Positions 4,506-31,165 of a stretch of 64,000 nt of DNA are shown in pieces (positions within the stretch are counted from its first letter, which is position 1; every line of letters begins with the position of its first letter). The position numbers were made by a program, and so were the translations under genes. The notes under the pieces were generated by a model that ran no database searches, was not told the origin of the DNA, and was given only the letters and a program-made list of their open reading frames with translations. Source of the stretch: Clavelina lepadiformis (Eukaryota; Chordata; Ascidiacea; Aplousobranchia; Clavelinidae); assembly GCF_947623445.1 (NCBI RefSeq), contig NC_135245.1, positions 2,797,501 to 2,861,500 of the forward strand, given 5' to 3'.

Positions 4506-4509
4506 AAAC

Positions 4510-6063: not shown

Positions 6064-9000
6064 CGAACCGAACAGACAATAATTAAGAAAAAGAGAATCG
6101 GCCGAAAATGCTGTAATTATGCATGTCCCAACGCTCTTGCAGTGAATTCCCTATAGGTCGCTCGGAAAATATAATCTGCCAGTTTATATGGAAAAGAAAC
6201 TAAGAATTGCATGACAGATGACTGCATTTCACCGTAAGCAGGTCATGCGGATAATTGTATGTAGGCGGTTAAGTTAGAAGGAATGATGGATAAAAAGTTA
6301 GTTTCATAGTTATTTTAATTTTAAGAACAAGATAAAGTTGGGTAGGGTTACAGTTTACACTATTGTTATAACTTTCTAGTTAAAAGTTCGCAATAAACCA
6401 TAAAAATAGCGCGGAACTGGAAAAAAAATAAACGGTACGGTATGCATTGTCTTCAAGTGAAAGTAGAAAGCTAAGAGGTAAAATGGTCCTTAACGTGCGT
6501 TTTTTTCTTTCTTCAAAACAAAGTAGAAGATCATGTTCTTGACTATATCAGCGATTTGCACTCGTTTAACATGAATATGACAAAACGCCCTCAGGATATT
6601 TGGTCGTAATTCAAAACGAAGTTCTTAAAATGGGAGCATGCTGTAATATAGTATAGGGGGCATTTAAAGCATTCATATATAAAGTTCTCAAGTATTTCTT
6701 GTATTATATATACCAGTTATCGTGATGAATTGTTGCATTTACGATGTTAAATAAGCTTGGAATGGACAATCCATTTTTTTGTTAAAAGATAAAACTGTAC
6801 ATAAACAATTTAGGTCAATCATATAATTAAACTGAATGTTATTCAAACCAGTCATTCAAATGTTTCAGGGTCGACGTTGCTAACACATTTCAAAATATTT
6901 TTGTTGAACTTCAGTTATAAATCTGACCAAGCTGCTACCAAAGAACACTCCACTGTAAAGCATATCAGATTAGAAACATGCTAGAAACCGACGTGTAAAG
7001 AATTAATTTACTGCAATGAACACAAACATAAAACACCTTCCTGATAGTGACCGATCCCCATTTGACCTATATACAACGATCGTAAATAATTATGAACTGG
7101 CGCCATCAAGACTCAATATATTCAATATATCGATTTCGCAAACTTAAAATCAAACACAACAAAAGAAAACGATAAAGAAAAGGAACCATAAGCACAGGTG
7201 CGGTAACCTTAACAAATCTGCATTTGTTAGAGGTCGGCATGGAATTTCTTGATAAGTTCATAGTTTACTGTATTTTATAGTTCCTGGTGATTTCACCATA
7301 TTTCTTTCCCATCGGGCCCAAGGCGAAAATGTGACGTAATGTGATGTTCATACAATGGTTACGTCAAACCCTAAAAAACTATGATTCCCAATCAGGAAGC
7401 AGCAACATTATGATGGTGGATGAATATAAAAATTTTTCATTCGTTTTATGAATTTTTAAAAAAGCCATTTAAGACTTTGCACTTAAGTGTTGAGTTTGAA
7501 CATTAGAGGCTAGATTCTCGCTGGAGTAATGGAAGACAGTCAGATCTTTACCGTTGAAACGTATATGTACTTTGTTTCTTAAGCGATTTGTCATCATGTA
7601 AACCTTAATAGAACTGTGCGCTCCAGGAGGCAAAACCTAAAAGCCACGTTTCCAACGTCCTTAAAAAGACTTCTGGGCATTCTGGCATATTTGATATTAG
7701 TTTCGTTCGAGCGCTGGTAAATTTTCAGTACCAATGCTTTTGCAGGTGACAGCATATAGGCCTATAAAGTTTCTGTTTGAACTTTGAAAACGATCGAAGC
7801 AGATATTTTGGCCGTCAGTTGGGAGCGAAAAGAACACGCAGCAGTACCGTTTGAAAGTTAAAAAAGTGTATGCCTATACGATAATTCGTATAATTGTAAT
7901 GTGTTTGTAGATTTTTTAAACATAATTCAGTATTAATGCAACAAATGAATACTTGTCTTATGACTTTTCAAATATTAACGGACACGTTTTGGCTTTTATC
8001 AACATAATTTATTAAAATTTCCAACCAACATAAATCAAATAAACACAACCCGATTAATATATAAATGAATGAATATATAAACTGCGTAAAACATAAAATG
8101 TCTAGTACAAAAATATTTTACAAAAAATACCAAAGACATTATAATGGCCAATAATAATCAATGCACTTCGACATTCGAAATGTGGATGATGAAAGGTTAA
8201 AGACAGAACTTCTAGAATTTTCTACTTGTTGAAATAACATAAGTTGGATTTCCAGGTTCTTGACCCTCTCCTCGGTTTTCTTCTGATGTTGATTTTGCAA
8301 GGTCTTCTTTCTCAATGAGCGAGAGCCCTTGTGTCTGCGTTTGTTTCTGCGCTTTATTTTCTGGGCGTTGGTGGGAGACGATCTGGAGATCGGTGAAGGA
8401 ACACGAGATTTGACTGAACTATCAAGTTTGACGGCTGGTTGAAGTTCAGAAGTATCCTGTAAAAAATAACAACTAATGAACGGCTTCAATGCTAATAAAT
8501 TAAATTTATGATCTAACTAATATAATCGAAGTTATTGTTGTTCATGAAACTTATTTAAAAGATAGAAAATAAATCTATCATTAATCAATAAAACTTTTAT
8601 GTGGTTTAGAAGAAAATTATTTTTGGTGCTCACCATATTTGCAATTGGCTCGGTTTTGAAGTTCACTTTTAAATCGGATTGGCAGAATTCTTTCACCAAA
8701 TGCAGATATAGCTTATAGAAACAAAATGACAACAGCTGTAAAGAATACTTCAACCAATTAAAAAGTTCACAGCAAAAACAAATTACAAAAGCATTCCTAG
8801 TCTGACAATATTGTTTCAACAGTTAGATGACGTGTGAGGCGGTTTCTGATTTGTCACTACGGCTGAATCTTTCCTAATCAAAAAAATCAGCGGTCAAATG
8901 CAGTAACGCACATAGGACACACGCGGAAACAATAATCTGAATCCACTGTCACTAGATGTGTTTTATTGCTGAAACAGACTCAACTAACAGCTTTTAAACC

Positions 9001-9474
9001 TTTCGGAAAACCAAATTATGCGTTTAAACTACCTGTTTCTATAGAAATATTATTTTTCTAAGTTTACGAATTTAAATTTGAACCTAAATTTTGTACTTTC
9101 CACCCCTACGCATGTCGCGACATCTTCAGCCTGTCAGTTGCTCCTGTAGTGGTTAGTGCTTAACACCATGAGACACATGTTCTACTGTGGTTTTTGGAGT
9201 TGTGCTGCGCTTTTAAAGAAAATGTACAGGTCTGGAGATTTTTCCTTAACGATTTCGCAATGATCAAGCTTTCTAATTGATAAACAGAAGATATAGTTTC
9301 CTTTGCTTACCGCTGCCTTGTGTAAGCGCAATCTTACTATGCCTTGATTGACAGATGGATGAAAACGTTTTGGAACTTGATTAGATCATGTTATATCGAA
9401 AGGACCAGATAAAAATTTACGTTGGGATAGAGAAGAGCTCTAAACCGTGATTGTGCTTTATTTTATCAGGTTTA
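6064..9474. repeat. palindrome 1, left arm
   Basis: Reads as the reverse complement of 9667-13015. Matching landmarks are CCTATAGGTCGCTCGG near 6150 against CCGAGCGACCTATAGG near 12920, and the minus-strand gene copy at 8139-8735 against the plus-strand copy at 10413-11009. Paired coordinates sum to about 19,145 throughout. The arms differ by scattered substitutions and small indels and end near 6064, where homology stops within a few bases. Confidence 0.9.
8139..8735 (-). CDS. GLGRPSMCF-family short form, copy in left arm of palindrome 1
   Basis: Exon 1 is 8735-8634 (acceptor TTTACAG, donor GTGAGC) and exon 2 is 8456-8139, 105 codons plus stop. The codon matching the ATG of the complete copy at 28720 is GTG here (8666-8664), and the second ATG of exon 1 has become ATT, so the only conserved in-frame start left is the ATG abutting the donor. 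Exon 2 begins DTSELQPAVK, lacks the GLGRPSMCF block, and carries RSSPTNAQKIKRR, a very basic RRNKRRHKGS stretch, SLRKKTLQNQHQKKTEERV and a C-terminal IDYYWPL. It is the most diverged of the four short copies. It may be expressed from the short start or be decaying. Confidence 0.55.
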
Positions 9475-9666
9475 AATTAAAGAATGTCTGTCACATTTGG
9501 CCAAACTTTGTCGCTTGGGACAAAGTTATAATTATAATTGTAAAAGTTATTTATCAAAGCTTTTTGGCAGTATATGGATTTGGTAATTTTAAGTAAGTGC
9601 AAGGGCAGAAATGCAATTTTGTTGATGCTTTTATTTCATTCGGCGTTGCACAATCATCAACCCATG
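9475..9666. other. spacer of palindrome 1
   Basis: About 190 bp separate the arms. Much of it resembles the 3' tail of the tandem units (for example 14780-14900), so the palindrome seems to have formed around a fragment of such a unit. No coding potential is seen. Confidence 0.7.
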
Positions 9667-12600
9667 CAAATCTGATAAGATAAAAGTATAATCACGGTTT
9701 AGAGCTCTTCTCTATCCCAACGTAAATTTTTATCTGGTCCTTTCGATATAACATGATCTAATCAAGTTCCAAAACGTTTTCATCCACCTGTCAATCAAGG
9801 CATAGTAATTAAGATTGCGCTTACACAAGGCAGCGGTAAGCAAAGGAAATTATATCTTCTGTTTATCAATTAGAAAGCTTGATCATTGCAAAATCTTTAA
9901 GGACAATTTCTCCAGACCTGTATATTTTCTTTAAAAGCGCAGCCCAACTCCAAAACCCACAGTAGAACACCTGTCTCATGGTGTTAAGCACTAACCACTA
10001 CAGGAGCAACTGACAGGTTGAAGATGTCGCGACATGCGTAGGGGTGGAAAGTACAAAATTTAGGTTCAAATTTAAATTCGTAAACTTAGAAAAATAATAT
10101 TTTTATAGAAACAGGTAGTTTAAACGCATAATTTGGTTTTCCGAAAGGTTTAAAAGCTGTTAGTTGAGTCTGTTTCAGCAATAAAACACATCTAGTGACA
10201 GTGGATTCAGATTGTTGTTTCCGCGTGTGTCCTATGTGCGTTACTGCTTTTGACCGCTGATTTTTTTGATTAGGAAAGATTCAGCCGTAGTGACAAAATC
10301 AGTAACCAGCTCACACGTCATCTAACTGTTGAAACAATATTGTCAGACTAGGAATGCTTTTGTAATATGTTTTTGCTGTGAACTTATTAATTAATTGAAA
10401 CATTCTTTACAGCTGTTGTCATTTTGTTTCTGTAAGCTATATCTGCATTTGGTGAAAGAATTCTGCCAATCCGATTTAAAAGTGAACTTCAAAACCGAGC
10501 CAATGGCCGATATGGTGAGTACCAAAAATAATTTTCTTCTAAACCACATAAAAGTTTTATTGATAAGTGATAGATTTATTTTCTATCTTTTAAATAAGTT
10601 TCATGAACAACAATAACTTCGATTATATTAGTTAGATCATAAATTTAATTTATTAGCATTGAAGCCGTTCATTAGTTGTCATTTTTTACAGGATACTTCA
10701 GAACTTCAACCAGCCGTCAAACAAGATACTTCAGTCAAATCTCGTGTTCCTTCACCGATCTCCAGATCGTCTCCCACCAACGCCCGGAAAATGAAGCGTA
10801 GACACAAGCGCAGACACAAGGGCTCTCACTCATTGAGAAAGATGACGCTGAAAAATCAACATCAGAAGAAAACCGAGGAGAGGGTCAAGAAACTGGATAT
10901 CCAACTTATGTTTTTTTTACAAGTAGAAAATTCTGGAAGTTCTGTCTTTAACCTTCCATCATCCACATTTCGAATGTCGAAGTGCATTGATTATTATTGG
11001 CCATTATAATGTCTTTGGTATTTTTTGTAAAATATTTTTGCACTAGACATTTTATATTTGATGCAGTTCATTCATTTATTTATTTATTAATCGGGTTGAG
11101 TTTATTTGATTTATGTTGGTTGGGAGTTTTAATAAATTATGTTGATATAAACAAAAACGAGTCTGTTAATATGTGAAAAGTCATAGCACATGTATTTATT
11201 TATTGCATTATTACTGAACTATGTTTAAAAAATCTACAAACACATTACAATTATAAAAATTGTTTTATCGACATAATCTTTTTTAACCTTCAAGCGGTAC
11301 CGCTGCATATTCTTTTCGCTCCAAACTGAGTGCCAAAATAATCCCTTCAATCGTTTTCAAAGTTCAAACAGAAACTTTATAGGCCTATATGCTGTCACCA
11401 GCAAAAGCATTCGTACTGAAAATTTACCAGCGCTCGAACGAAACTAATATCAAATATGCCAGAATGCCCAGAAGTCTTTTTAAGGACTTTTGAAACGTGG
11501 ATTTTAGGGTTTGCCTCCTGGAGTGCACAGTTCTATTAAGGTTTAGATTATGACAAGTCGCTAAAGAAACAAACTACATACACGTTTCAACGGTAAAGAT
11601 TTCAGTGTTTTCCATTACTCTAGCGAAAATCTAGCCTCTAATCTTCAAACTCGAAACTTAAGTGCATAATCTTAACTGGCCTATTTAAAAATTCAAAAAA
11701 CGAATAAAAAACTTTAATATTCATCCGCCATCACAATGTTGCTGCTTCCTGATTGGTAATCCTAGTTTTTCAAAGTTTGACGTAACCATTGTATGACCAT
11801 CACATTACGTCACATTTTCGTCACGTGCCCCAAGGGAAAGAAATATGGTGAAATCATCAGGAACTATGAAATGCGGTAAATTATGAACTTATCAAGACAT
11901 TCCATGCCGATCTCTAATTATTGCAGATTTGTTAAGGTTGCCGCACCTGTGGGTAAGGTTTCTTTTCTTTATCATTTTCTTTTATTGTGTTTGATTTTAA
12001 TTTTGCGAAATTGGTATATCTAGGCCAAATGGGGCTCGTTCCTTATCAGGAAGGCGTTGTATGTTTGTGTTCATTGCAGTAAATTAATTCGTTACACGTC
12101 GGTTTCTAGCATATTTCTAATCTGATATGCTTTGCAGTGGTGTGTTCTTTGGTATCAGCTTGGTCAGATTTATAACTGAAGTTCAATAAAATATTTTGAA
12201 ATGTGTTAGCAACGTCGACCCTGAAACATTTGAATGACTGCTTTGAATAATTTTCAGTTTAATTAAGTGATTGACCTAATTTATTAATGTTCAGTTTTAT
12301 CTTTTTCCAAATAAAATGGATTGTCCATTCCAAGTTTCGTTTAACATCGTAAATGCAACAATTCATCACGATAACTGGTATATACAATACAAGAAATACT
12401 TGAGAACTTTATATATGAATGCTTTAAATGCCCCCTATACTATATTATAGCATGCTCCCATTTTAAGAACTTCGTTTTGAATTACGACCAAATATGCTGA
12501 GGGCGCGTTGTCATATTCATGTTAAATGAGTGCAAATGGCTGATATAATCAAGAATATGATCTTCTACTGTGTTTTGAAGAAAGAAAAAAACGCACGTTT

Positions 12601-13015
12601 GATCCATTTTACCTCTTAGCTTTCTACTTTCACTTGAAGATAATGCATACCGTACCGTTTATTTTTCGCCAGTTCCGCGCTATTTTCATGGTTTCTTGTG
12701 AACCTTACAAGTTAAAAGTTATAACAATAGTGTAACCCCACCCAACTTTATCATGTTCTTAAAATTGAAATAACTATGAAACCAACTTTTGTCCACCATT
12801 CCTTCTAATTTAACCGCCTATATACAACTATCCGCATGACCAGCTTTCGGTGAAATGCAGTCATCTGTCATGCAATTCTTAGTTTCTTTTCCATATAAAC
12901 TAGCAGATTCTATTTTCCGAGCGACCTATAGGGAATTCACTGCGAGAGCGTTGGGACATGCATAATTACAGCATTTTTGGCCGATTCTCCTTTTTTAAGT
13001 ATTGTCTGTTCGGTT
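9667..13015. repeat. palindrome 1, right arm
   Basis: Inverted partner of 6064-9474. It is also directly repeated at an offset of 18,238 and then 18,235 bp in the right arm of palindrome 2; the 3-bp change is one extra Tyr codon at the end of the short gene here. The direct copies look closer to each other than the two arms of palindrome 1 do. Confidence 0.9.
10413..11009 (+). CDS. GLGRPSMCF-family short form, right arm of palindrome 1
   Basis: Exon 1 is 10413-10514 (acceptor TTCTTTACAG, donor GTGAGT, phase 0) and exon 2 is 10692-11009. The ancestral start position is GTG (10482-10484); the next in-frame ATG is 10503, giving MADM before exon 2. Exon 2 encodes DTSELQPAVKQDTSVKSR, RSSPTNARKMKRR, a basic run, SLRKMTLKNQ, KKTEERVKKLDIQL and the C-terminal IDYYWPL: 105 residues, very basic, with no membrane segment. 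AATAAA is at 11131 and the upstream module at 10171-10218. Its exon 1 is the nearest upstream first exon for the two exon-1-less long copies at 14065 and 19077, and all acceptors are phase 0. Confidence 0.6.
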
Positions 13016-14064
13016 CTATTTGCTTATGGTTCTATTATCTAGTACGTGGCAAGTACAGCTTTATTCCTTATCTTTGTACAATGCAACTCGACCTAACCAA
13101 GTGCGAAAACAATTTTACCAACTTGGCAATAATCGCACCTTCTGTTTACCAACTTGACTTGAAGCTTGGTCGGTGCGAAAACTTTAACAAAAAACAAGAG
13201 AAGTCTGCTGAAAAGCAACAGAATTAAAATCGCGTTTTACAGTCTTCAGCTTGAAAAAATGCAGTAACTATCAGGAGAAACTAACCGACTAAAGTCACTT
13301 TAGTTGTAACTTGTAACAAGAATGATGTTCTGATCTAAGTGTAGTTTTAGGAGAGCTTTAGAGTGCAAAGCCTTATACGTGTAAATACAATAACGTTTAG
13401 CGAATTTTAACGTATACATATGCCTAACTTGACGTGCTGTATAACTGGCGAAAAATCGAGTTTTGTCGTGCAGTGAAATGTTAACATCGCAATTAATTTT
13501 TTTAGAAATAAATCAGGTAGCACGTGAACTTTGAATTAAGGAAAGGTGTCTAACCTAAAACATAGCACAAGTTAAGATGATTTGGTCTGTTTCAACACCT
13601 ATAAATAATAAAACACAGCCAATGACAGTGGTTGCAGATTATTGTATCAGTAAGCCTTACCTTTAAGTACGGGTTTCTTTTGTGTTTCCTAATCAATAGT
13701 CATCTCATAGGATACATAATCACTGAAACATAGGAAAACAATTGCTCAAAAGTTAGGAACCTTTGAGCAAGATTTTTGTTTCAGATTTCCTTATTGACTG
13801 AGACATCGCTTTGCAGGTGATGACAATTTGTTAGTGATATATTTTAAATGTTGAACAACTTTACAATATCGTGTTTGAAATAATATATTCATGGTTGAAA
13901 AAACAAAATTTCAACAATGTCTGTTGCCGTAACTTGTTTAACAAATTAACTTTATGGCACGATGCGAACTTATTGGCGACTAAGATGTTGTGATTTTAAA
14001 ATATTCTGTTGCTTTACTTGCAAATTAAAATTATTCATTTTAACTGGTTATGATTGTTTAACAG
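13016..14064 (+). other. 5' region of tandem unit 2, first exon lost
   Basis: Contains a stretch conserved in every unit with CAACTTGGCAATAATCGCACC near 13120, the upstream module at 13587-13650, and the conserved acceptor GCTTTGCAG near 13810. Compared with the copy at 38638, the end of exon 1, its ATG and donor and the start of the intron are missing after TTTCAAC near 13916. What follows matches the middle of the intron in the 4510 gene. Confidence 0.65.
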
Positions 14065-14742
14065 AGTGTTTCGGACTTGCAACGGCTCGAGCAAAACTTC
14101 AGCACTTGGTTCCATATGCAAGATCGACAGACAAACATGGCAGCAGCCCCACTTGGCCTGGGACGACCATCCATGTGCTTCAACCCCAACTTGGTGTACA
14201 CTAAAGCTACAAAACTGTTATCAGAAAGACATTCAAAAGCGAATTTTGATTGTCCTGCTCCAAGAAAGCGTCTTGGCAAGGTTCTCAAGCCGCTCGCGCC
14301 CAAAGCAGAAGTTAACGGTGACAACCCGAAGTTTGTGACACTTACAGATTTATTGGATGGAAAGAACATTAACACGGATCCGAAGTCTCAACGACGTCCG
14401 TTTCTCCGTCCGCTTGTCACCATCAGCCGTTCCGCTAGAAAAAATATTCGTAAAACCGGCAAGAAAGATGTTCCAAAGAAGTCTTTGTCCACGTGCGAAT
14501 CTTCCTCTTCAATGATTTTTTCTTCTCTACCCCTAGCTCCTTCGACGCCATTGTTTGTGGCCAAGTCACACCCTCGGTGCAAGCTGCAAAAAGCGGTAAA
14601 AAACAGATTGGAGAACAGGAGCTCTTCATCTGGAAGCCAGCTTGGATTGCCTAATATGGTTCACATGAAGGACAATGCTCAGCATGCGGCTTCCAAATCA
14701 ACTTCTATCTCCTCCCCGATGAAGAAGCATCTTTATAAGTGA
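14065..14742 (+). CDS. GLGRPSMCF-family long exon 2, lacking its own exon 1
   Basis: The acceptor TTTAACAG ends at 14064 and an open frame of 225 codons runs to TGA. It opens SVSDLQRLEQNFSTWFH and keeps the AAAPLGLGRPSMCF block, the KPLAPKAEVNGDNPKF block and the Ser-rich middle. It stops after KKHLYK because the Arg codon CGA of the other long copies reads TGA here, which removes about 50 C-terminal residues including the coiled-coil-like segment. The ATG exon and donor are deleted. It could be an alternative terminal exon served by exon 1 at 10413-10514, be trans-spliced directly and start at the internal ATG of FHMQDRQ, or be a pseudogene. The open frame over 225 codons argues against a very old pseudogene but does not prove use. 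Confidence 0.5.
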   Translation, partial: SVSDLQRLEQNFSTWFHMQDRQTNMAAAPLGLGRPSMCFNPNLVYTKATKLLSERHSKANFDCPAPRKRLGKVLKPLAPKAEVNGDNPKFVTLTDLLDGKNINTDPKSQRRPFLRPLVTISRSARKNIRKTGKKDVPKKSLSTCESSSSMIFSSLPLAPSTPLFVAKSHPRCKLQKAVKNRLENRSSSSGSQLGLPNMVHMKDNAQHAASKSTSISSPMKKHLYK

Positions 14743-16078
14743 TCCTGATTTAGACCTCTCTGAACTTTGTTTAATTCTAAAAGTTATTTATCAAAACATT
14801 TTGGCTGTATATGAATTATGTAATTTTATCCATGTGCAAGGGCATAAACGCAATTTTGGTTGCTGCTTTGGATTCATTTGGCGTTGCGCAATCATCAACT
14901 CATGCATTATTTTTGCCAATTCATTTTTGTTTGCTGTATTCATACATCGCTACGTGTGGAATCAATTACTCGCAATCATTCATCTAAATCTCAAACACAG
15001 AATGCAATTAAGAAAACATGGGATTGAATAAAAAGTCTGTAAGAGTCATAATTACTAATTTGCAGAAAGCTCTGTATTGACTAACTTTTAAAGTGAGAGG
15101 TACGTCCAAAAACAAGTCGGCCTTAAATCGAAGAGTTGATGTCAGTTAATTTACTGGTGAATGAATTTTTAATCATATGAAGTGGTTAGGCCATAATTGC
15201 AATAAGTAAGTGGCAAAAATGCAAATTAATCGCTTATGACGAAGATCGCAATTCTTATTACATCAATATGATAGAAAAAAATATGAATGACTTAATAGGT
15301 GTTTGGATGAAGTCTGAATAGAATGTTTCCTGTGAATGACAAGTAAAGATTAATAGAAAATATTTTGAGTCAAGTAAGCCTAAACTAGCTTACCGTTGGT
15401 GTATTTGGACTGGTTAGTGTAAAAGCTAACCTAGAGTACAGTTCAGTGTCGGCTGTTGACTCTGACTGCGATAAAAGCAAGAATGGTTTATCAGTTTATG
15501 TGCTGTCGTCTGCGACATTCTTCTGCTAAACATAATTATTTTTTGCTAATAATCACCTACTTATGGACATGGATTCCATCGAAAACGCGTTAGCTGACTT
15601 ACCATTCCTCATACAATTTATCCCAGTCAACAAGCATATGGTTTATACATTGTGACATCGTAGTGACCGTCGTCTCTGTCATATTAGGAGATTAAATTTG
15701 TCATACAATTTTAGCAATAATTGCTTAACCATTACATGTTATTAATATTCCTTTCACCAGCATACTAACTGACAACTAATCTTTGATTTAAATGCAAATC
15801 GTTTTTTGACTTGCCCCTCACATTAATGATATGATGTCAGAATAAAGTACAAAGCGAATTTTCAAAGATTTTAGACGTTTCTCCTTTTGGTGATTGATAT
15901 AGTTGAATCAAAACTTTTGACGGCTTGCGATCTCCATCGTCACGAAAAAGTACAAAGGCTGGCACTTATCAAAAATAGAAACCGAAGTATTCAACAGCTT
16001 TGAATACAGAAAACACAGACGAATCGTCCAAAATATGCATCATTTGATGGGTAGTGCTCACTGCTTACTTGTGCATTG
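14743..16078. other. 3' tail of tandem unit 2
   Basis: Non-coding sequence shared by all units (compare 21674-22793, 32978-34313, 36457-37576). The small open frames here do not keep their frame between copies. It ends at the target site of the MULE-like element. Confidence 0.6.
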
Positions 16079-17922
16079 GGTACTACGACACCTTATCGAA
16101 AGACACTTTATCGAAAGACACTTTATCGAACGACACCTGATCGAAACGACAGCTGATCGAAAGACACTTTATCGAACGACAGTTAATCGAGCCGACAGTT
16201 GATCGAAAGACACTTTATCGAAACGACAGCTGATCGAACGACATTTTATCGAACCGACAGTTAATCAAAACGACAGTTGATCGAACGACACTTTATCGAA
16301 CCGACAGTTCAAGCAAGATTTTAGCGTGTTTCTCAAACATTGGAACAATGAGCCATTGTGATGTGCGGTCTTTGTAATGGTGTGCATTAATGAATTGTGA
16401 TGTATATATCATAAAGTTGACGATTTATATTTTATATCTATATTTTATATTTGTATCATAAAGTGTTCGATTTCGCATGGCGGCCGGCCCGCCCACATAT
16501 TAATAAGATATCACAAGAATACGCACGAGAATTACTAAGTACGAGATTGTCTGTACAGTAGACTAGACTAGTCATTATAGATACAAAGAGTAAGGAATTG
16601 AAGGCAAAATTTAATAGCAAGGGGCATGTCGCTGTCTGACTTTTACACAAAGTAGCTTCTTGAAAGTGGTCTTTATCCCAGCTTGACCGACAGCGCAAAA
16701 TAAATGGCTTCGATGCTTGGTAGCACGTACACATGTGAACAAATGTTTTCAACAATGAAATTCACGAAAAGCAAGCTAAGATCACGCATTTCCGACGCCT
16801 ATTTAGAAAATGTTCTGGCTCTTGCTTCATATGACTTGCCACCAGATGTTGAAAAACTTTCACAAAGCAAGCAGCATCAAGTGTCACTTTAATGCTGTGT
16901 TGTTGAAGTGTGAACACAACGGTTCCAACGAATTGTTAATTGAACAATTGAGTGCTGGAATCGATGGCCCACCACGGAAGAAGCGCTACGACGCTGTCAA
17001 CCAACGTCTGAGGAGCATAGTTGAAAATTATGACTCAACAAACATGGACATAAAAAGTTATCTTCGAGCAATTGCACACAACTTGTGATTAAATGAATGC
17101 GATTGAAATGTGCACTTCGTCAGTTGTCGTGCTTTTAACAGTGCATGTTGTCAGTTCTTTTAATAAATTGTCGTTCTTTTAACAGTGCATATCGTCAGTT
17201 GTTTCAATAAATTGTGGATCTTTTAACCCTATCCTAACCAGGCTCGCGAGTTTACTAAAAAAACTAGGTGTGGCCAACCCCGCACACACATTTGCAATCG
17301 TTAATTACTAGAAACCTATGCGTCGTAGACGATGAGATTATTACAGGTTAGTAGAAACATCATCTGGCTTCCTGTATACATCATAATTGTAAAACTAAAG
17401 AAAGTGAATTTAGTGTAAATTAGGTATTTCTAAAAGTGACACATTTCTATAAATTCTTCTTGTTACGCCGCGCCCCCGCTGTGAAAAGAGAACGAAAAAG
17501 AATAGTTAGTCAAGTTATTGGTGCGTAAATGAGTAATACGTTTCAATGCGGAGAGAGAGCAAAATTATATAAATATCACAATATCTCAAAAATTGCAAAA
17601 TCTAACTTTATCAAACAAACATGGACAGATAGCTGAACATCACAATGACCCATTGTTTCAATGTTTGAGAAACACGCAAAAATCTTGCTTGAACTGTCGG
17701 TTCGATAAAGTGTCGTTCGATCAACTGTCGTTTTGATTAACTGTCGGTTCGATAAAGTGTCGTTTGATCAACTTTCGGTTCGATAAAGTGTCTTTCGATC
17801 AACTGTCGTTTCGATCAGGTGTCGTTTCGATCAGGTGTCGTTCGATTAAGTGTCTTTCGATAAAGTGTCGTTCGATTAAGTGTCGTTCGATAAAGTGTCT
17901 TTCGATAAGGTGTCGGGTCACG
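16079..17922. mobile_element. MULE-like non-autonomous DNA transposon with captured hAT fragment
   Basis: The 1,844-bp element is flanked by a perfect 8-bp target duplication, GTGCATTG (16071-16078 and 17923-17930). The second copy of the region, near 34306, has the uninterrupted site. Ends read GGTACTACGACACC and GGTGTCGGGTCACG. Each end carries about 230 bp of short repeats of the type CGACACTTTATCGAA, inverted relative to each other. The interior retains the last part of a MULE transposase (about 16919-17088, ending IAHNL then stop). It also has a piece of a hAT transposase, absent from its sister at 20074-21665. It cannot encode a complete transposase. Confidence 0.88.
16597..16892 (+). 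pseudogene. hAT transposase C-terminal fragment captured in the MULE-like element
   Basis: Translating forward gives KAKFNSKGHVAV, then in another frame SDFYTK and LLESGLYPSLTDSAK, then GSTYTCEQMFSTMKFTKSKL and LRSRISDAYLENVLALASYD. This is the hAT dimerisation region of the type found in GTF2IRD2, EPM2AIP1 and ZBED-like proteins. One frame change and two in-frame stops (TAG in the YTK-LLE link, TAA before MASML) break it. The last 62 codons (16704-16892) are open. It replaces about 100 bp of MULE coding sequence seen in the sister element. Confidence 0.8.
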
Positions 17923-17930
17923 GTGCATTG

Positions 17931-20073: not shown

Positions 20074-21665
20074 CGTGACCCGACACCTTATCGAAAGACA
20101 CTTTATCGAACGACACTTAATCGAACGACACTTTATCGAAAGACACTTAATCGAACGACACCTGATCGAAACGACACCTGATCGAAACGACAGTTGATCG
20201 AAAGACACTTTATCGAACCGAAAGTTGATCAAACGACACTTTATCGAACCGACAGTTAATCAAAACGACAGTTGATCGAACGACACTTTATCGAACCGAC
20301 AGTTCAAGCAAGATTTTTGCGTGTTTCTCAAACATTGAAACAATGGGTCATTGTGATGTTCAGCTATCTGTCCATGTTTGTTTGATAAAGTTGGATTTTG
20401 TAATTTTTGAGATATTGTGATATTTATATAATTTTGCTCTCTCTCCGCATTGAAACGTATTACTCATTTACGCACCAATAACTTGACTAACTATTCTTTT
20501 TCGTTCTCTTTTCACAGCGGGGGCGCGGCGTAACAAGAAGAATTTATAGAAATGTGTCACTTTTAGAAATACCTAATTTACACTAAATTCACTTTCTTTA
20601 GTTTTACAATTATGATGTATACAGGAAGCCAGATGATGTTTCTACTAACCTGTAATAATCTCATCGTCTACGACGCATAGGTTTCTAGTAATTAACGATT
20701 GCAAATGTGTGTGCGGGGTTGGCCACACCTAGTTTTTTTAGTAAACTCGCGAGCCTGGTTAGGATAGGGTTAAAAGATCCACAATTTATTGAAACAACTG
20801 ACGATATGCACTGTTAAAAGAACGACAATTTATTAAAAGAACTGACAACATGCACTGTTAAAAGCACGACAACTGACGAAGTGCACATTTCAATCGCATT
20901 CATTTAATCACAAGTTGTGTGCAATTGCTCGAAGATAACTTTTTATGTCCATATTTGTTGAGTCATAATTTTCAACTATGCTCCTCAGACGTTGGTTGAC
21001 AGCGTCGTAGCGCTTCTTCCGTGGTGGGCCATCGATTCCAGCACTCAATTGTTCAATTAACAATTCGTTGGAACCTTGTTCCTGCTTAATTTTTTTGACG
21101 AGTCTGCGAAGCGTCGGATGGGATATTGAGACACGCTTGCTGAACGCATTGTGCCATCCTTCAATGCAATTATTCAATTCCTTACTCTTTGTATCTATAA
21201 TGACTAGTCTAGTCTACTGTACAGACAATCTCGTACTTAGTAATTCTCGTGCGTATTCTTGTGATATCTTATTAATATGTGGGCGGGCCGGCCGCCATGC
21301 GAAATCGAACACTTTATGATACAAATATAAAATATAGATATAAAATATAAATCGTCAACTTTATGATATATACATCACAATTCATTAATGCACACCATTA
21401 CAAAGACCGCACATCACAATGGCTCATTGTTCCAATGTTTGAGAAACACGCTAAAATCTTGCTTGAACTGTCGGTTCGATAAAGTGTCGTTCGATCAACT
21501 GTCGTTTTGATTAACTGTCGTTTCGATAAAGTGTCTTTCGATCAACTGTCGGCTCGATTAACTGTCGTTCGATAAAGTGTCTTTCGATCAGCTGTCGTTT
21601 CGATCAGGTGTCGTTCGATAAAGTGTCTTTCGATAAAGTGTCTTTCGATAAGGTGTCGTAGTACC
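20074..21665. mobile_element. MULE-like non-autonomous DNA transposon, second copy, inverted
   Basis: The 1,592-bp element is in opposite orientation to the one at 16079. Ends are CGTGACCCGACACC and GGTGTCGTAGTACC, with the same repeat-rich ends. The flanks ACACAATC (20066-20073) and CTACAATC (21666-21673) are an 8-bp target duplication with two changes. The unoccupied site ACACAATC followed by ATCCGC is at 36449 in the duplicated region. The interior keeps the uncorrupted MULE end. Confidence 0.85.
20908..21177 (-). pseudogene. MULE transposase C-terminal remnant
   Basis: An 89-codon open frame: NNCIEGWHNAFSKRVSISHP, then LRRLVKKIKQEQ, then RKKRYDAVNQRLRSIVENYD and YLRAIAHNL. The N-x-x-EGWHNAF and HPT pattern is typical of the C-terminal end of animal MULE transposases, including FLYWCH-linked ones. 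The catalytic DDE part is absent, so this is the tail left in a non-autonomous derivative. Confidence 0.8.
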
Positions 21666-21673
21666 CTACAATC

Positions 21674-22793
21674 ATCCGCTCATGCATTATTTTCGCCAAT
21701 TCATGTTTGTTTGCTGTATTCATATATCGTTACGGGTGGAATCAATTACTCCCAATTCCCAATCATTCGTCTAAATTTCAAACACAAAGTAGAATTAGGA
21801 AAACATCGGATAAAATAAAAAGTCTTTTAAGAGTCATAGTTACTAATATGCTGCAGAAAGATCTTTATTGACTAACTTTTAAAGTGAGAGGCGCGTCCAA
21901 AAACAAGTTGGCCATAAATGGAAGAGTTGATGTGAATAAATATGCTGGTGAAAGAATTTGTAATCATATAAAGTGGTTAGGTTATAATAGTAATAAGTAA
22001 GTGGCAAAAACGCAAAGTAATCGCTTATGACGATGATCGCAGTTCTTATTACATCACAATAATAGAAAAAAATAGGAATGACTTAGGTGTTTGGATCAAG
22101 TATGAATATAATGTTTTCTGTGACGGACAAGTAACGGGTAATAGGAAACATTTCGCGTTAAGTAAGCCTAAACTAGCTTACCGTTGGCGTATTTGTACTG
22201 GTTGAAGTAAATGCTAATCTAGAGTACAGTTCAGTGTCGGCTGTTGACTCCAACTGTGATAAAAGCAAGAATACTTTATCAGTTTATGTGCTGTCCTCTG
22301 TGACATTCTTGTGCTGAATTTAAAAATTATCGAAGTGTTATGCGGTAAAAAATGATGCGGAATAAGAAAATCTATAAAGCTTTAACGTGTATTTCTATAA
22401 GTTATTATATAGGTTGAAATATAACCTGTGAACGAAAAAACAATTGTACTCAACTCCAAATCTTACTTTTCATGTTATTACTGTGATCTACAAAAATAAA
22501 TATATATGATAAAATACATAAATAATGCAATAAAAGGTTGGGTAATTGTCCTTCGTTTACAACCGTTAAAACCTTCACAAGTCACATTATGAAACAAATC
22601 CACATAATAATAAATCAAACAACGGCTTTCTTTTTGGTGATTGATATAATTGGATCAAAACGTTTGACGGCTTGCGATCTCCATCGTCACGAAAAAGTAC
22701 AAAGGCTGACACTTATCAAAAATAGAAACCGAAATCTTCAACAGCTTTGAATACATAAGACACAGACGAATTGTCCAAAATATGCATCAGTTG
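21674..22793. other. 3' tail of tandem unit 3
   Basis: Matches 36457-37576 at a constant offset of 14,783 bp. No gene is supported. It stops at the third MULE-like element. Confidence 0.6.
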
Positions 22794-23264
22794 CGTGACG
22801 CGACACCTGATCGAAAGACACTTTATCGAACGACACTTAATCGAACGACAGTTTATCGAAAGACACTTAATCGAACGACAGCTGATCGAAACGACACCTG
22901 ATCGAAACGACAGTTGATCGAACGACACTTTATCGAACCGACAGTTGATCGAATCGACTGTTGCTTCTCCCGCACACAGTCATAGCAAAACGTGGGGTAC
23001 CGTTGCATTGTTTGCTGTAGAAAATTAAAATTTGGTGACTTTTCATTAAAAATGTTCAGCTATCTGTCCATGTTTGTTTGATAAAGTTGGATTTTGTAAT
23101 TTTTGAGATATTGTGATAGTTATATAATTTTGCTCTCTTTCCGCATTGAAGCGTATTACTCATTTACGCACCAATAACTTGACTAACTATTCTTTTTCGT
23201 TCTCTTTTCACAGCGGGGGCGCGGCGTAACAAGAAGAATTTATAGAAATGTGTCACTGTTAGAA
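22794..23264. mobile_element. MULE-like element, third copy, truncated at an inversion junction
   Basis: Starts CGTGACGCGACACC with the subterminal repeats, then the inner sequence with GGGGGCGCGGCGTAAC near 23215, and ends abruptly at AGAA (23261-23264). There the inverted left arm of palindrome 2 takes over. The other end of the element is missing. The homologous place in the second copy (after 37576) has no insertion. Confidence 0.8.
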
Positions 23265-26200
23265 TTGCATGACAGATGACTGCATTTCACCGAAAGCTGG
23301 TCATGCGGATAGTTGTATGTAGGCGGTTAAGTTAGAAGGAATGATGGATAAAAAGTTGGTTTCATAGTTATTTCAATTTTAAGAACATGATAAAGTTGGG
23401 TAGGGTTACACTATTGTAATAACCTTCTAGTTAAAGGTTCGCAATAAACCATGAAACTAGCGCGGAACTGGAAAAAAAATAAACCGTACGGTATGCATTG
23501 TCTTCAAGTGAAAGTTGAAAGCTAAGAGGTAAAATGGTCCTTAACGAGCGTTTTTTTCTTTCTTCAAAACACAGTAGAAGATCATATTCTTAATTACATC
23601 AGCGATTTACAATCGTTTAACATGAATATGACAACGCGCCCTCAGGATATTTGGTCGTAATTCAAAACGAAGTTCTTAAAATGGGAGCATGCTATAATAT
23701 AGTATAGGGGGCATTTAAAGCATTCATATATAAAGTTCTTAAGTATTTCTTGTATTGCATGTACCAGTTATCGTGATGAATTGTTGCATTTACGATGTTA
23801 AACGAAACTTGGAATGGACAATCCATTTTATTTGGAAAAAGATAAAACTGAACATTAATAAATTAGGTCAATCACATAATTAAACTGAAAATTATTCATA
23901 CTAGTCATTCAAATGTTTCAGGGTCGACGTTGCTAACACATTTCAAAATATTTTATTGAACTTCAGTTATAAATCCGACCAAGCTGCTACCAAAAAACAC
24001 TCCACTGCAAAGCATATCAGATTAGAAATATGCTAGAAACCGACGTGTAACGAATTAATTTACTGCAATGAACACAAACATAAAACAACTTCCTGATAGT
24101 GACCGAGCCCCATTTGGTCTATATACAACGATCGTATATAATTATGAACTGGCGCCATCAAGCGACATTCAATATATCAATTTCGCAAACTTAAAATCAA
24201 ACACAATAAAATAAAAAGATAAAGAAAAGGAACCATAAGCACAGGTGCGGTAACCTTAACAAATCTGCATTTGTTAGAGATCGGCATGGAATTTCTTGAT
24301 AAGTTCATAGTTTACCGTATTTCATAGTTCCTGATGATTTCACCATATTTCTTTCCCATCGGGCACAAGACGAAAATGTGACGTAATGCGATGGTCATAC
24401 AATGGTTACTTTAAACTCTGAAAAACTATGATTACCAATCAGGAAGCAGCAACATTGTGATGGCGGATGAATATTAAAATTTTTCAATCGTTTGTTGAAT
24501 TTTTAAATAGGCCATTTCAGATTTTCCAATTAAGTGTTGATCGAGTTTGAAGATTAGAGGCTAGATTTTCGCTAGAGTAATGGAAAACACTCAAATCCTT
24601 ACCCTTGAAACGTATATGTAGTTTGTTTCTTTAGCGACTTGTCATAATCTAAACCTTAATAGAACTGTGCGCTCCAGCAGGCAAACCCTAAAATCCACGT
24701 TTCAAAAGTCCTTAAAAAGACTTCTGGGCATTCTGGCATATTTGATATCAGTTTCGTTCGAGCGCTGGTAAATTTTCAGTACGAATGCTTTTGCGGGTGA
24801 CAGCATATAGGCCTATAAAGTTTCTGTTTGAACTTTGAAAACGATTGAAGGGAATATTTTGGCACTCAGTTTGGAGCGAAAAGAACATGCAGCGGTACCG
24901 TTTGAAGGTTAAAAAAGATTATGTCGATAAAACAATTTTTATAATTGTAATGTGTTTGTAGATTTTTTAAACATAGTTCATTAATAATGCAATAAATGAA
25001 TACATATGCTATGACTTTTCACATATTAACAGACTCGTTTTGGTTTATATCAACATAATTTATTAAAATTCCCAACCAACATAAATCAAATAAACTTAAC
25101 CCGATTAATAAATAAATAAATGAATAAACTGCATAAAATATAAAATGGCTAGTGCAAAAATATTTTACAAAAAATACCAAAGACATTATAATGGCCAATA
25201 ATCAATGAACTTCGACATTCGAAATGTGGATGATGGAAGGTTAAAGACAGAACTTCCAGAATTTTCTACTTGTAGAAAAAACATAAGTTGGATATCCAGT
25301 TTCTTGACCCTCTCCTCGGTTTTCTTCTGATGTTGATTTTGCAGCGTCATCTTTCTCAATGAGCGAGGGCCCTTGTGTCTGCGCTTTATTTTCCGGGCGT
25401 TGGTGGGAGACGATCTGGACATCGGTGAAGGAACACGAGATTTGACTGAACTATCTTGTTTGATGGCTGGTTGAAGTTCCGAAGTATCCTGTATAAAATG
25501 ATAAGTAATGAATGGCTTCAATGCTAATAAATTAAATTTATGATCTAACTAATATAATCGAAGTTATTGTTGTTCATGAAACTTATTTAAAAGATAGAAA
25601 ATAAATCTATCACTTATCAATAAAACTTTTATGTGGTTTAGAAGAAAATTATTTTTGGTACTCACCATATCGGCCATTGGCTCGGTTTTGAAGTTCACTT
25701 TTAAATCGGATTGGCAGAATTCTTTCACCAAATGCAGATATAGCTTATAGAAACAAAATGACAACAGATGTAAAGAATACTTCAATTAATTAATAAGTTC
25801 ACAGCAAAAACATATTACAAAAGCATTCATAGTCTGACAATATTGTTTCAACAGTTAGATGACGTGTGAGCTGGTATCTGATTTTGTCACTGCGGCTGAA
25901 TCTTTCCTAATCAAAAAAATCAGCGGTCAAAAGCAGTAACGCACATAGGACACACGCGGAAACAACAATCTGAATCCACTGTCACTGGATGTGTTTTATT
26001 GGTGAAACAGACTCAACTAAAGCTTTTAAACCTTTCGGAAAACCAAATTATGCGTTTAAACTACCTGTTTCTATAAAAATATTTTCAAAGTTTATGAATT
26101 TAAATTTAAACCTAAATTTCGTAATTTCGACCCCTATACGCAAGTCGCGACATCTTCTAGCCTGTCAGTTGCTCCTGTAGTGGTTAGTGCTGAACACCAT

Positions 26201-26895
26201 GAGACACGTGTTCTACTGTGGTTTTTGGAATTGAGCTGCGCTTTTAAAGAAAATGTACAGGTCTGGAGAAATTTTCCTTAAAGATTTTGCAATGATCAAG
26301 CTTTCTAATTGATAAACAGAAGATATAATTTCCTTTGCTTACCGCTGCCTTGTGTAAGCGCAATCTTACTATGCCATGATTGACAGGTGGATGAAAACGT
26401 TTTGGAACTTGATTAGATCATGTTATATCGAAAGGGGCAGATATAAATTTACGTTGGGATAGAGAAGAGCTCTAAACCGTGATTGTGCTTATTTTATCAG
26501 GTTTAAATTAAAGAATAGCTGTTACATTTGGCCGAATTTTTCGCTTGGGACCTGTTACAATTCTAAAGGTTATTCATCAAAACATGTTGGGTGTATATTG
26601 ATTATGTAATTTTATCTATGTGCAAGGGCACAAATGCAATTTTGGTTGATGCTTTTATTTCATTTGGCGTTACACAAGCATTAACTCTTGCATTATTTTC
26701 GCTAATTCATTTTTGTTTGCTGTATTCATATACCGCTACGTGTGGAATCATACACTCCCAACTCCCAATCATTCATCTAAATCTCAAACACAAAATACAA
26801 TTAGGAAACCATGGGATAAAATAAAAAGGCTACTAAAGATTCATAGTTACTAATATGCAGAAAGCTCTTTATTGGCTGACTTTTAAAGTGAGAGG
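23265..26895. repeat. palindrome 2, left arm
   Basis: Reverse complement of 27525-31165; paired coordinates sum to about 54,430. The arms are visibly more alike than those of palindrome 1. For example the short-gene exon 2 on both arms shares the same replacements and the single-Tyr ending IDYWPL, which suggests exchange between the arms. Confidence 0.88.
25186..25767 (-). CDS. GLGRPSMCF-family short form, left arm of palindrome 2
   Basis: Exon 1 is about 25767-25666 and exon 2 is 25488-25186. The donor GTGAGT is intact, but the upstream acceptor of the other short copies (TTTACAG) reads TTTACAT, so the 5' end of exon 1 is uncertain. The ancestral start is GTG (25698-25696); the next in-frame ATG gives MADM. 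Exon 2 encodes 100 residues: DTSELQPAIKQ, RSSPTNARKIKRR, SLRKMTLQNQ, KKTEERVKKLDIQL and the ending IDYWPL. It is five residues shorter than its siblings because the doubled basic RRNK segment is missing. Confidence 0.5.
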
Positions 26896-27524
26896 CACGT
26901 CCAAAATCAAGTCGGTCTTAAATCGAAGAGTTGATGTCAGTAAATATACTGGTGAAAGAATTTTTAATAGTATGTAGTAGTTAGGCAATAATTGCAATAA
27001 GTAAGTGGCAAAAACACAAACTCATCGCTTATGACCAAGATGGCGATTGTTATTACATCACAATAACAAAAAACAATAGAAATGATTTAGGTGTCTGAAT
27101 AAAGTATGAATAGAATGTTTCCTGTGACAGAAAAGTAACGAATAATAGAAAATATTTTGCGTTAACTAAGCCTAAACTAGCTTACCGTTGGTGTATTTGG
27201 ACTAGTTAATGTAAAGGCCAATCTAGAGAGCAGTTCAGTTTTAGCTGTTTGCTCTAACTGTATTAAAAACAAGAACACTTTGTCAGTTTATGTGCTGTCG
27301 TCTGTGACATTCCTGTGCTGAATATAAGCATTACTTGCTAATAATCACCTACCTATGGACATGTATTCCATCGAAAACGCGTTACCTTGCTTGCCGTAGC
27401 TAATATAGACCTAATTTAATATAATTATTGCTAAAGTTGTATGGCAAACTTGGCCACCTAACATGACAGAGACGGCGGTTATTATGACGTCACAATTTAT
27501 AAACCATATGCTTGTTGACTGGGG
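26896..27524. other. spacer of palindrome 2
   Basis: The left part (to about 27390) matches the plus-strand unit tail at 15085-15590. The right part is the inverted match of about 15600-15730, so the turning point of the inversion lies near 27.4 kb inside a unit tail. No coding potential is seen. Confidence 0.65.
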
Positions 27525-30500
27525 TAAAGTCAGTCAATAAAGAGCTTTCTGCATATTATTAACTATGGTTCTTAGGCCTTTTAATTTTATCCCATGTTTT
27601 CCTAATTGTGTTTCGTGTTTGAGATTTAGATGAATGATTGGGAATTGGGAGTTGGGAGTGCTCGATTCCACCCGTAATGATATTTGAATACAGCAAACAA
27701 AAATGAATTAGCGAAAATAATGCAAGAGTTGATGATTGTGTAACGCCGAATGATATCAAAGCAACAACCAAAATTGCATTTATGCCCTTGCACATAGATA
27801 AAATTACAAAATCCATAAACAGCCAAAATGTTTTGACAAATAGCTTTTAGAATTGTAACAGGTCCCAAGCGAAAAAGTTCGGCCAAATGTAACAGATATT
27901 CTTTAATTGAAATCTGATAAGATAAAAGTGCAATCAGGGTTTAGAGCTCTTCACCAGCCTAACGTAAATTTTTATCTGGCCCTTTCGATATAACATGATC
28001 TAATCAAGTTCCAAAACGTTTTTATCCACCTGTCAATCATGGCATAGTAAGATTGCGCTTACACAAGGCAGCGGTAAGCAAAGGAAATTATATCTTCTGT
28101 TTATCAATTAGAAAGCTTGATCATTGCAAAATCGTTAAGGAAAAATCTCCAGACCTGTACATTTTCTTTAAAAGCGCAGCACAACTCCAAAAACCACAGC
28201 AGAACATGTGTCTCATGGTGTTCAGCACTAACCACTACAGGAGCAACTGACAGGCCAAAAGATGTCGCGACATGCGTAGGGGTGGAAAGTACAAAATTTA
28301 GGTTCAAATTTAAATTCGTAAACTTAGAAAAATAATATTTTTATAGAAACATGTAGTTTAAACGCATAATTTGGTTTTCCGAAAGGTTTAAAAGCTATTA
28401 GTTGAGTCTGTATCACCAATAAAACACATCCAGTGACAGTGGATTCAGATTGTTGTTTCCGCGTGTGTCCTATGTGCGTTACTGCTTTTGACCGCTGATT
28501 TTTTTGATTAGGAAAGATTCAGCAGCAGTGACGAAATCAGAAACCAGCTCACACGTCATCTAACTGTTGAAACAATATTGTCAGACTAGGAATGCTTTTG
28601 TAATTTGCTTTTGCAGTGAACTTTTTAATTAGTTGAAGTATTCTTTACAGCTGTTGTCATTTTGTTTCTATAAGCTATATCTGCATTTGGTGAAAGAATT
28701 CTGCCAATCCGATTTAAAAATGAACTTCAAAACCGAGCCAATGGCCGATATGGTGAGTACCAAAAATAATTTTCTTCTAAACCACATAAAAGTTTTATTG
28801 ATAAGTGATAGATTTATTTTCTATCTTTTAAATAAATTTCTTGAACAACAATAACTTCGATTATAATAGTTAGATCATAAATTTAATTTATTAGCATTGA
28901 AGCCGTTCATTACTTTTCATTTTTTACAGGATACTTCAGAACTTCAACCAGCCATCAAACAAGATAGTTCAGTGAAATCTCGTGTTCCTTCACCGATGTC
29001 CAGATCGTCTCCCACCAACGCCCGGAAAATGAAGCGTAGAAACAAGCGAAGACACAAGGGCTCTCACTCATTGAGAAAGATGACGCTGAAAAATCAACAT
29101 CAGAAGAAAACCGAGGAGAGGGTCAAGAAACTGGATATCCAACTTATGTTTTTTCTACAAGTAGAAAATTCTGGAAGTTCTGTCTTTAACCTTCCATCAT
29201 CCACATTTCGAATGTCGAAGTTCATTGATTATTGGCCATTATAATGTCTTTGGTATTTTTTGTAAAATATTTTTGCACTAAACTTTTTATGTTTGATGCA
29301 GTTTATTCATTTATTTATTTATTAATCGGGTTGAGTTTATTTGATTTATGTTGGTTGGGAGTTTTAATAAATTATGTTGATATAAACAAAAACGAGTCTG
29401 TTAATATGTGAAAAGTCATAGCACATGTATTTATTTATTGCATTATTACTGAACTATGTTTAAAAAATCTACAAACACATTACAATTATAAAAATTGTTT
29501 TATCGACATAATCTTTTTTAACCTTCAAGCGGTACCGCTGCATATTCTTTTCGCTCCAAACTGAGTGCCAAAATAATCCCTTCAATCGTTTTCAAAGTTC
29601 AAACAGAAACTTTATAGGCCTATATGCTGTCACCAGCAAAAGCATTCGTACTGAAAATTTACCAGCGCTCGAACGAAACTAATATCAAATATGCCAGAAT
29701 GCCCAGAAGTCTTTTTAAGGACTTTTGAAACGTGGATTTTAGGGTTTGCCTCCTGGAGTGCACAGTTCTATTAAGGTTTAGATTATGACAAGTCGCTAAA
29801 GAAACAAACTACATACACGTTTCAACGGTAAAGATTTGATTGTTTTCCATTACTCTAGCGAAAATCTAGCCTCTAATCTTCAAACTCGAAACTTAAGTGC
29901 ATAATCTTAACTGGCCTATTTAAAAATTCAAAAAACGAATAAAAAACTTTAATATTCATCCGCCATCACAATGTTGCTGCTTCCTGATTGGTAATCCTAG
30001 TTTTTCAAAGTTTGACGTAACCATTGTATGACCATCACATTACGTCACATTTTCGTCACGTGCCCCAAGGGAAAGAAATATGGTGAAATCATCAGGAACT
30101 ATGAAATGCGGTAAATTATGAACTTATCAAGACATTTCATGCCGATCTCTAATTATTGCAGATTTGTTAAGGTTGCCGCACCTGTGGGTAAGGTTCCTTT
30201 TCTTTATCATTTTATTTTATTGTGTTTGATTTTAATTTTGCGAAATTGGTATATCTAGGCCAAATGGGGCTCGTTCCTTATCAGGAAGGCGTTGTATGTT
30301 TGTGTTCATTGCAGTAAATTAATTCGTTACACGTCGATTTCTAGCATATTTCTAATCTGATATGCTTTGCAGTGGTGTGTTCTTTGGTATCAGCTTGGTC
30401 AGATTTATAACTCAAGTTCAATAAAATATTTTGAAATGTGTTAGCAACGTCGACCCTGAAACATTTGAATGACTGCTTTGAATAATTTTCAGTTTAATTA

Positions 30501-31165
30501 AGTGATTGACCTAATTTATTAATGTTCAGTTTTATCTTTTTCCAAATAAAATGGATTGTCCATTCCAAGTTTCGTTTAACATCGTAAATGCAACAATTCA
30601 TCACGATAACTGGTATATACAATACAAGAAATACTTGAGAACTTTATATATGAATGCTTTAAATGCCCCCTATACTATATTATAGCATGCTCCCATTTTA
30701 AGAACTTCGTTTTGAATTACGACCAAATATGCTGAGGGCGCGTTGTCATATTCATGTTAAATGAGTGCAAATGGCTGATATAATCAAGAATATGATCTTC
30801 TACTGTGTTTTGAAGAAAGAAAAAAACGCACGTTTGATCCATTTTACCTCTTAGCTTTCTACTTTCACTTGAAGATAATGCATACCGTACCGTTTATTTT
30901 TCGCCAGTTCCGCGCTATTTTCATGGTTTCTTGTGAACCTTACAAGTTAAAAGTTATAACAATAGTGTAACCCCACCCAACTTTATCATGTTCTTAAAAT
31001 TGAAATAACTATGAAACCAACTTTTGTCCACCATTCCTTCTAATTTAACCGCCTATATACAACTATCCGCATGACCAGCTTTCGGTGAAATGCAGTCATC
31101 TGTCATGCAATTCTTAGTTTCTTTTCCATATAAACTAGCAGATTCTATTTTCCGAGCGACCTATA
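27525..31165. repeat. palindrome 2, right arm
   Basis: Inverted partner of 23265-26895 and direct copy of the right arm of palindrome 1. From 29244 the offset to the first copy is exactly 18,235 bp, with only scattered substitutions visible. Confidence 0.88.
28651..29244 (+). CDS. GLGRPSMCF-family short form with intact ATG
   Basis: Exon 1 is 28651-28752 (acceptor TTCTTTACAG, donor GTGAGT) and exon 2 is 28930-29244. The start ATG at 28720 gives MNFKTEPMADM, matching the MKFNTEPMKRM of the 4510 gene, then 104 residues from exon 2: 115 in all. Features are RSSPTNARKMKRR, a basic run, SLRKMTLKNQ, KKTEERVKKLDIQL, and the ending FIDYWPL. It is the only short copy with ATG at the ancestral start. 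AATAAA is at 29366 and the upstream module at 28408-28458. The protein is small, basic and soluble. Function is unknown; the EERV-x-x-L-x-x-QL stretch could be a short coiled coil. Confidence 0.65.

Follow-up and report, generated by a model that had tools for sequence, protein, structure and literature searches.

Two interrupted palindromes, each containing one head-to-head pair of short two-exon genes, lie within a 35-kb tandem array on chromosome 6 (C6) of the ascidian Clavelina lepadiformis. The site pattern of their arms suggests that the locus probably arose by inverted duplication and tandem copying, together with patchy ectopic gene conversion among the arms. The window analyzed was the 64,000-nucleotide stretch C6:2797501-2861500, to which all positions without a chromosome prefix refer. 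Its GC content was 35.9%, and that of chromosome 6 is given as 36.0% (PMC10884593). The genome sequence searched comprised 209,060,895 bases in 95 contigs, the published assembly being 210.1 Mb in 102 scaffolds (PMC10884593). COX1 had no match in the sequence searched.

Structure of the palindromes

The arms were delimited by blastn of the window against itself. In palindrome 1, positions 6065-7073 paired with 13016-12017 at 91.9% identity and 7125-9473 with 12019-9668 at 92.5%, defining a left arm L1 (6065-9473, minus strand), a right arm R1 (9668-13016, plus strand) and a centre of 194 bp (9474-9667). In palindrome 2, 24172-26883 paired with 30254-27526 and 23261-24125 with 31114-30252, both at 93.6%. 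The left arm L2 (23261-26883, minus strand) and the right arm R2 (27526-31114, plus strand) were separated by a centre of 642 bp (26884-27525). The inner 584 bp of L2 paired with 27526-28116 at 90%, and beyond the extent of R2 that pairs with L2 the match to L1 continued to 31251. An earlier sequence-only reading had described both palindromes, with ends and spacer sizes that self-alignment showed to be right to about 100 bp.

As a background control, inverted self-matches (E ≤ 1e-8) were sought in six arbitrary 10-kb stretches of chromosomes 1-6 (60 kb in total), and none of the six held one longer than 53 bp. The parts of the window that flank the cluster (1-4600 and 40500-64000) had a longest inverted match of 72 bp. 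Because the control stretches held only short inverted matches, inverted repeats of several kilobases are atypical of this genome, judged on the 60-kb sample. A dispersed transposon was rejected as the identity of the arms, since 2 kb of the L1 arm matched just seven places in the genome: four in the window, one at C6:1.89 Mb and two that were short and weak. The C6:1.89 Mb locus (C6:1886180-1891437), about 0.9 Mb from the window, holds one short gene and one g39-like gene, is 88-89% identical to the window arms and the g39 unit, and is non-palindromic, its longest inverted match being 64 bp. Searches for RNA families (gathering threshold) and tRNAs (bacterial settings) found none.

Tandem copying and the truncated centre

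A segment comprising R1, the genes B and C and flanking sequence (9668-22793, plus strand) recurred at 27910-37576 in three pieces: 9668-16078 at 98.8%, 17923-20073 at 99.8% and 21668-22793 at 98.4% identity. The 18-kb tandem copies differed by two transposon insertions. A simple tandem copy of one palindrome does not explain an L1-L2 identity of 91.6% beside an R1-R2 identity of 98.8%, a likeness that with its flank runs over 6.4 kb.

In a comparison with palindrome 2, the match of the palindrome 1 centre to the left inner arm ended at 9668, where the match to the right inner arm began; some 1.2 kb of the palindrome 2 centre was skipped, with about one base in common at the join. In palindrome 2 the inner arms are longer, in agreement with the C6:1.89 Mb copy. 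Given this break and this agreement, the most fitting interpretation is that palindrome 1 is a relative of palindrome 2 with a deletion in the centre, and that the 194-bp spacer is an unpaired piece of inner L1 with no partner in R1. All ten genome matches of 9440-9700 lay on C6, either in the window or at 1.89 Mb. The centre of palindrome 2 consisted of the continuation of the 3′ flank of one GLGRPSMCF gene and, beginning near 27423, a roughly 100-bp dispersed repeat with at least 30 matches genome-wide, the query itself counted in.

The short genes and the GLGRPSMCF family

Each arm carries one short gene of two exons, transcribed outward. The R1 gene (10488-11009, plus strand) has an exon-1 motif at 10488-10514 and exon 2 at 10692-11009, and would encode 109 aa with a pI of 10.5; the R2 gene (28726-29244, plus strand) has the motif at 28726-28752 and exon 2 at 28930-29244, for 108 aa. 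On the minus strand, the L1 gene (8139-8660) has the motif at 8660-8634, ending in ATG/GTGAG, and an open frame with exon 2 at 8456-8139, and the L2 gene (25186-25692) has the motif at 25692-25666 and exon 2 at 25488-25186. Products of 101-109 aa are predicted, assuming that translation starts at an ATG within exon 1 or at its end. Exon 2 was open in all five short copies, and the indels were whole codons. By pairwise Nei-Gojobori estimates, which here and below rest on few sites, dN/dS of the four window copies was 0.23-0.52 against the C6:1.89 Mb paralogue and 0.37-1.14 among themselves; the L1 gene had the highest dN against the other copies.

The GLGRPSMCF motif was present in six plus-strand genes, all outside the arms. 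Gene A (4510-5653) has exon 1 at 4510-4542 and its main open frame at 4838-5653, and gene g39 (38657-39478) has an exon-1 motif at 38657-38682 and its main open frame at 39053-39478. Gene B (14062-14742) has an open frame of 226 aa that lacks the C-terminal segment, and gene C (19074-19850) an open frame of 258 aa; in neither was the exon-1 motif found. B′ (32297-32977) is the tandem copy of B, and the translation of C′ (35457-36233) is identical to that of C. The dN/dS of g39 against its copy at C6:1886180-1886602 was 0.25, and values among A, B and C were 0.81-0.99. Because of the latter values and the missing exon-1 motif, B, C and their copies may be decaying; judged from these ratios, the short genes and g39 look more constrained.

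The sequence-only reading had called the arm genes short GLGRPSMCF-family genes in head-to-head pairs. The pairing was confirmed but the motif itself is absent from all four, and their kinship is instead supported by the exon-1 motif and the C-terminal segment. The exon-1 motif, F-x-x-E-P with ATG/GTGAG no more than a few codons behind it, occurred at six places in the window, once before each short gene, before A and before g39. It occurred twice at locus L031, before its short and g39-like genes, and was not found, with the narrow DNA pattern used, in the other 10 loci scanned. At the start of exon 2 the short genes have DTSELQ, A has SVADLQ and g39 has TVSDLQ; in B and C, SVSDLQ stands at the corresponding place of the open frame. 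In a profile comparison the C-terminal part of the short genes aligned with other members over 39 columns (probability 88%, E 2.9e-6).

None of four members (A, C, g39 and the R1 short gene) matched Pfam over the cut-off. The best Pfam match among 15 members scanned was to DUF2208 (E 0.00052, in one of the 15, not gauged against its cut-off), and no convincing PDB match was obtained (best E 0.073 and 1.2). A geminin-like coiled-coil identity was without support from any library match and was rejected. The family is one of small, seemingly basic proteins expanded on ascidian chromosome 6; the sequence reads as that of a basic protein whose C-terminus is possibly a coiled coil, and which, as a guess, is perhaps nuclear.

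Exchange between arms

The four arms were aligned with the C6:1.89 Mb copy, giving 2956 gap-free columns between 1100 and 4230, of which 442 were variable. Differences were counted, leaving out coding columns, for an inner part of 1.4 kb (5′ flank and gene) and for the outer part, the border having been chosen after the data were seen. L1 and R1 differed at 45/1063 inner columns (4.2%) versus 149/1579 outer columns (9.4%; Fisher p 2.7e-7). The same contrast was obtained for L1-R2 (48/1063 versus 150/1579, p 1.2e-6) and L1-L2 (49/1063 versus 128/1579, p 0.00045). The distance from L1 to the paralogue was flat (102/1063, 9.6%, inner; 140/1579, 8.9%, outer; p 0.54), so constraint fails to explain the inner likeness of L1. 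Indeed, paralogue distance was flat along all four arms (p 0.12-0.69).

No inner/outer contrast was seen for L2-R2 (52/1063 versus 85/1579, p 0.59) or R1-L2 (48/1063 versus 85/1579, p 0.36), and for R1-R2 it was reversed (58/1063 inner, 8/1579 outer, p 5.5e-16). Because the R1-R2 differences concentrate in the inner part, a recent copying or exchange between R1 and R2 ended near or inside the short gene. Expressed relative to paralogue distance, the mean of the four L-R distances was 0.46 in the inner noncoding part and 0.72 in the outer part, with overlapping bootstrap intervals (0.31-0.67 and 0.60-0.87, respectively).

Of the 26 four-arm informative sites of the inner part, 11, 7 and 8 supported the three possible pairings, respectively. 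The within-palindrome pairing L1R1/L2R2 was not dominant, with 11 of the 26 sites overall and, among noncoding sites, 8 of 19, equal to L1R2/R1L2. The inner sites were arranged in blocks, forming 10 runs where 18.0 were expected (reached by 15 of 20,000 shuffles); the noncoding sites by themselves formed 8 runs against 12.8 expected (293 of 20,000 shuffles). A second alignment of these columns lost one inner site and left the order of the remainder unchanged. Of the outer informative sites, 49/50 supported L1L2/R1R2 but carry little independent weight, R1 and R2 being near-identical there. A scan with a free border located it within exon 2, at column 2261, and none of 5000 shuffles gave one as strong. 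Because R1 and R2 are near-identical outside that border, the scan and its Fisher test mainly mark the end of the R1/R2 likeness.

A GENECONV-like longest-run test was applied to ten pairs with 2000 shuffles each, uncorrected for the ten pairs. The observed run was reached by 34 shuffles for L1-R1, 5 for L1-L2, 16 for L1-R2 and 0 for L1-paralogue; by 19 for R1-L2, 0 for R1-R2 and 569 for R1-paralogue; and by 869 for L2-R2, 11 for L2-paralogue and 29 for R2-paralogue. A homogenized tract within diverged paralogues was found for L1 against R1, R2 and L2, and was absent for L2-R2. Arm-to-arm conversion is in part supported by these site patterns: the suggestion, made from the sequence at the outset, of a conversion-driven locus fits the inner 1.4 kb, with L1 as the clearest case, but not L2-R2, which lacks the contrast. 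In addition, about 400 columns of L1 (3200-3600) were 97.5-98.5% identical to the C6:1.89 Mb copy, a stretch that adds to the outer divergence of L1 and hints at exchange across some 0.9 Mb between L1 and that copy.

Proposed origin and alternative explanations

In the proposed model, a short gene with its flanks would have been duplicated inversely to give a head-to-head palindrome, and the palindrome with its adjoining genes would then have been copied in tandem. About 1.2 kb would later have been lost from the centre of palindrome 1. Thereafter, ectopic gene conversion among the arms would have patched the inner 1.4 kb. In the outer arms, L1 and L2 would have diverged, and R1 and R2 would have been made alike by separate recent copying or exchange. 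Under this presumed order of events, the extra copies may act as added expressed copies of the short gene.

A serious rival, to which a real though minor chance is given, is unequal crossing-over combined with recombination between strongly diverged haplotypes of this outbred ascidian, with no conversion between inverted arms. Ascidian heterozygosity is high, such recombination could yield similar mosaics, and the mosaic is known here from one assembly. The close likeness of R1, R2 and their flank beside the lower L1/L2 identity likewise indicates that a large exchange or duplication took place recently at least once. However, the short alternating blocks of inner sites would demand several exchanges with close breakpoints, and 19 of the 26 inner sites group an L arm with an R arm, though two thirds would be expected by chance.

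Inverted duplications without later exchange, with selection on the gene and promoter keeping the inner part alike, are disfavoured and improbable: the coding part is indeed constrained relative to the paralogue, but the distance to the paralogue does not differ between the inner noncoding part and the outer part, and the informative sites lie in blocks. An assembly artefact, in the form of joined haplotypes or fold-back errors, is given very little credence. The assembly was built from 117-fold HiFi coverage of DNA sheared to 12-20 kb, using hifiasm and purge_dups, with a QV of 67.4 (PMC10884593), and the window contains no N. For the palindromes themselves such an error is unlikely because their arms are 6-8% diverged, the sheared DNA was longer than either palindrome (7-8 kb), and joined haplotypes would produce direct, not inverted, order. 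An artefact may underlie the 18-kb tandem copy, which at 98.4-99.8% identity and with two transposon insertions resembles an allelic difference.

Comparison with known palindromic gene pairs

The sequence-only reading had likened the locus to ampliconic palindromes of sex chromosomes. Like those of mammals (PMC8981503), the palindromes have kilobase inverted arms around genes and signs of arm-to-arm exchange, but mammalian arms are more than 99% identical, whereas those found here are 92-94% identical (91.9-93.6%) and 3-4 kb long, and the assembly names no sex chromosome. A sex-chromosome reading was rejected, the window being on chromosome 6 and the genome note showing a dash under sex chromosomes (PMC10884593).

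The nearest known parallel is that of the autosomal Hsp70 and amylase pairs of Drosophila, which are closer than the sex-chromosome palindromes. Two Hsp70 pairs (Hsp70Aa/Ab and Hsp70Ba/Bb) and Amy-p/Amy-d are reported to be oriented as palindromes and to undergo ectopic conversion; this orientation has been argued to possibly limit copy-number change (PMC3924832). In Stratiomys hsp70, homogeneity weakens away from the coding part (PMC3071340). As in Drosophila, the genes form mirror-image pairs, Hsp70 also having two such pairs on an autosome (PMC3924832), and self-alignment showed the same tight inverted orientation of paralogues. In contrast, the Drosophila genes belong to another protein family, and conversion there is described from shared polymorphism and cross-species data (PMC3924832), whereas here the mosaic is seen in one assembly alone and the genes of one pair are not clearly each other's closest relatives. 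Among the open-access PMC papers listed in literature searches, none was found on this locus or the GLGRPSMCF family. The locus provides autosomal palindromic genes with mosaic arms in a non-vertebrate chordate, and the C6:1.89 Mb copy, some 0.9 Mb from it, offers a non-palindromic yardstick from within the chromosome.

Inverted copies on chromosome 7

It is conceivable, though doubtful, that members of the family recurrently form inverted pairs, as in the C6 palindromes and in a separate array on chromosome 7 (C7), and that inverted order is kept by selection for conversion repair with less copy loss or gain. Were the pairing old and recurrent, the family would allow a test of whether this order is favoured for conversion without copy-number change. 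At C7:3.47-3.66 Mb the C-terminal half of g39 had at least 18 matches; among the matches listed, 7 were on the plus and 11 on the minus strand, two had an internal stop and one was short. Strand switched 14 times in 17 steps, as in 0.4% of shuffles, a test that treats steps as independent, yet some pair units are tandem copies, so that it overstates the case. Two opposite-strand copies occurred within the stretch in five of the first eight C7 loci examined, with an inverted match of 312-317 bp at 89-92% identity. The partners showed no inverted match over the intervening kilobases, except for 138 bp at 79% in locus L027. Because the inverted likeness covers mainly the exon (about 310 bp), the chromosome 7 array consists of inverted exon pairs, not large palindromes.

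Genes B and C, and relatives of g39

At 13900-13945 and 18910-18955, the GLGRPSMCF-motif genes B and C look like fusions of a 5′ flank of the type belonging to gene g39 with an intron and exon of the type belonging to gene A. The exon-1 motif (F-x-x-E-P, followed within a few codons by ATG|GTGAG) and its splice donor were both missing from these fusion-like genes. The C-terminal half of g39 has at least 18 relatives on chromosome 7, which form an array on alternating strands (C7:3474966-3657621; loci L023-L030, L035 and L036); within this array one pair recurred 15.3 kb away.

Transposon insertions

Two transposon copies lay in opposite orientations at 16079-17922 and 20074-21665, were 99.6% identical over 1 kb, and both carried 15-bp subterminal repeats. 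The tandem copy of this segment contained neither transposon, and the empty sites were located at 34306-34313 and 36451-36456. The first insertion was flanked by an 8-bp target duplication, GTGCATTG; the putative duplication of the second agreed at 6 of 8 bases. A transposon ORF, which we take to be MULE-transposase-like from its appearance, had no Pfam match over the cut-off.

Neighboring genes

A tandem pair of galactose-3-O-sulfotransferase genes occupied 44257-49545 (Pfam matches at 45150-45563 and 49135-49542). A tandem repeat lay inside this region at 47358-47810; it is exact, with a period of 232. Minus-strand exons at 56539-57995 matched ankyrin and ArfGap and are presumably GIT-like.
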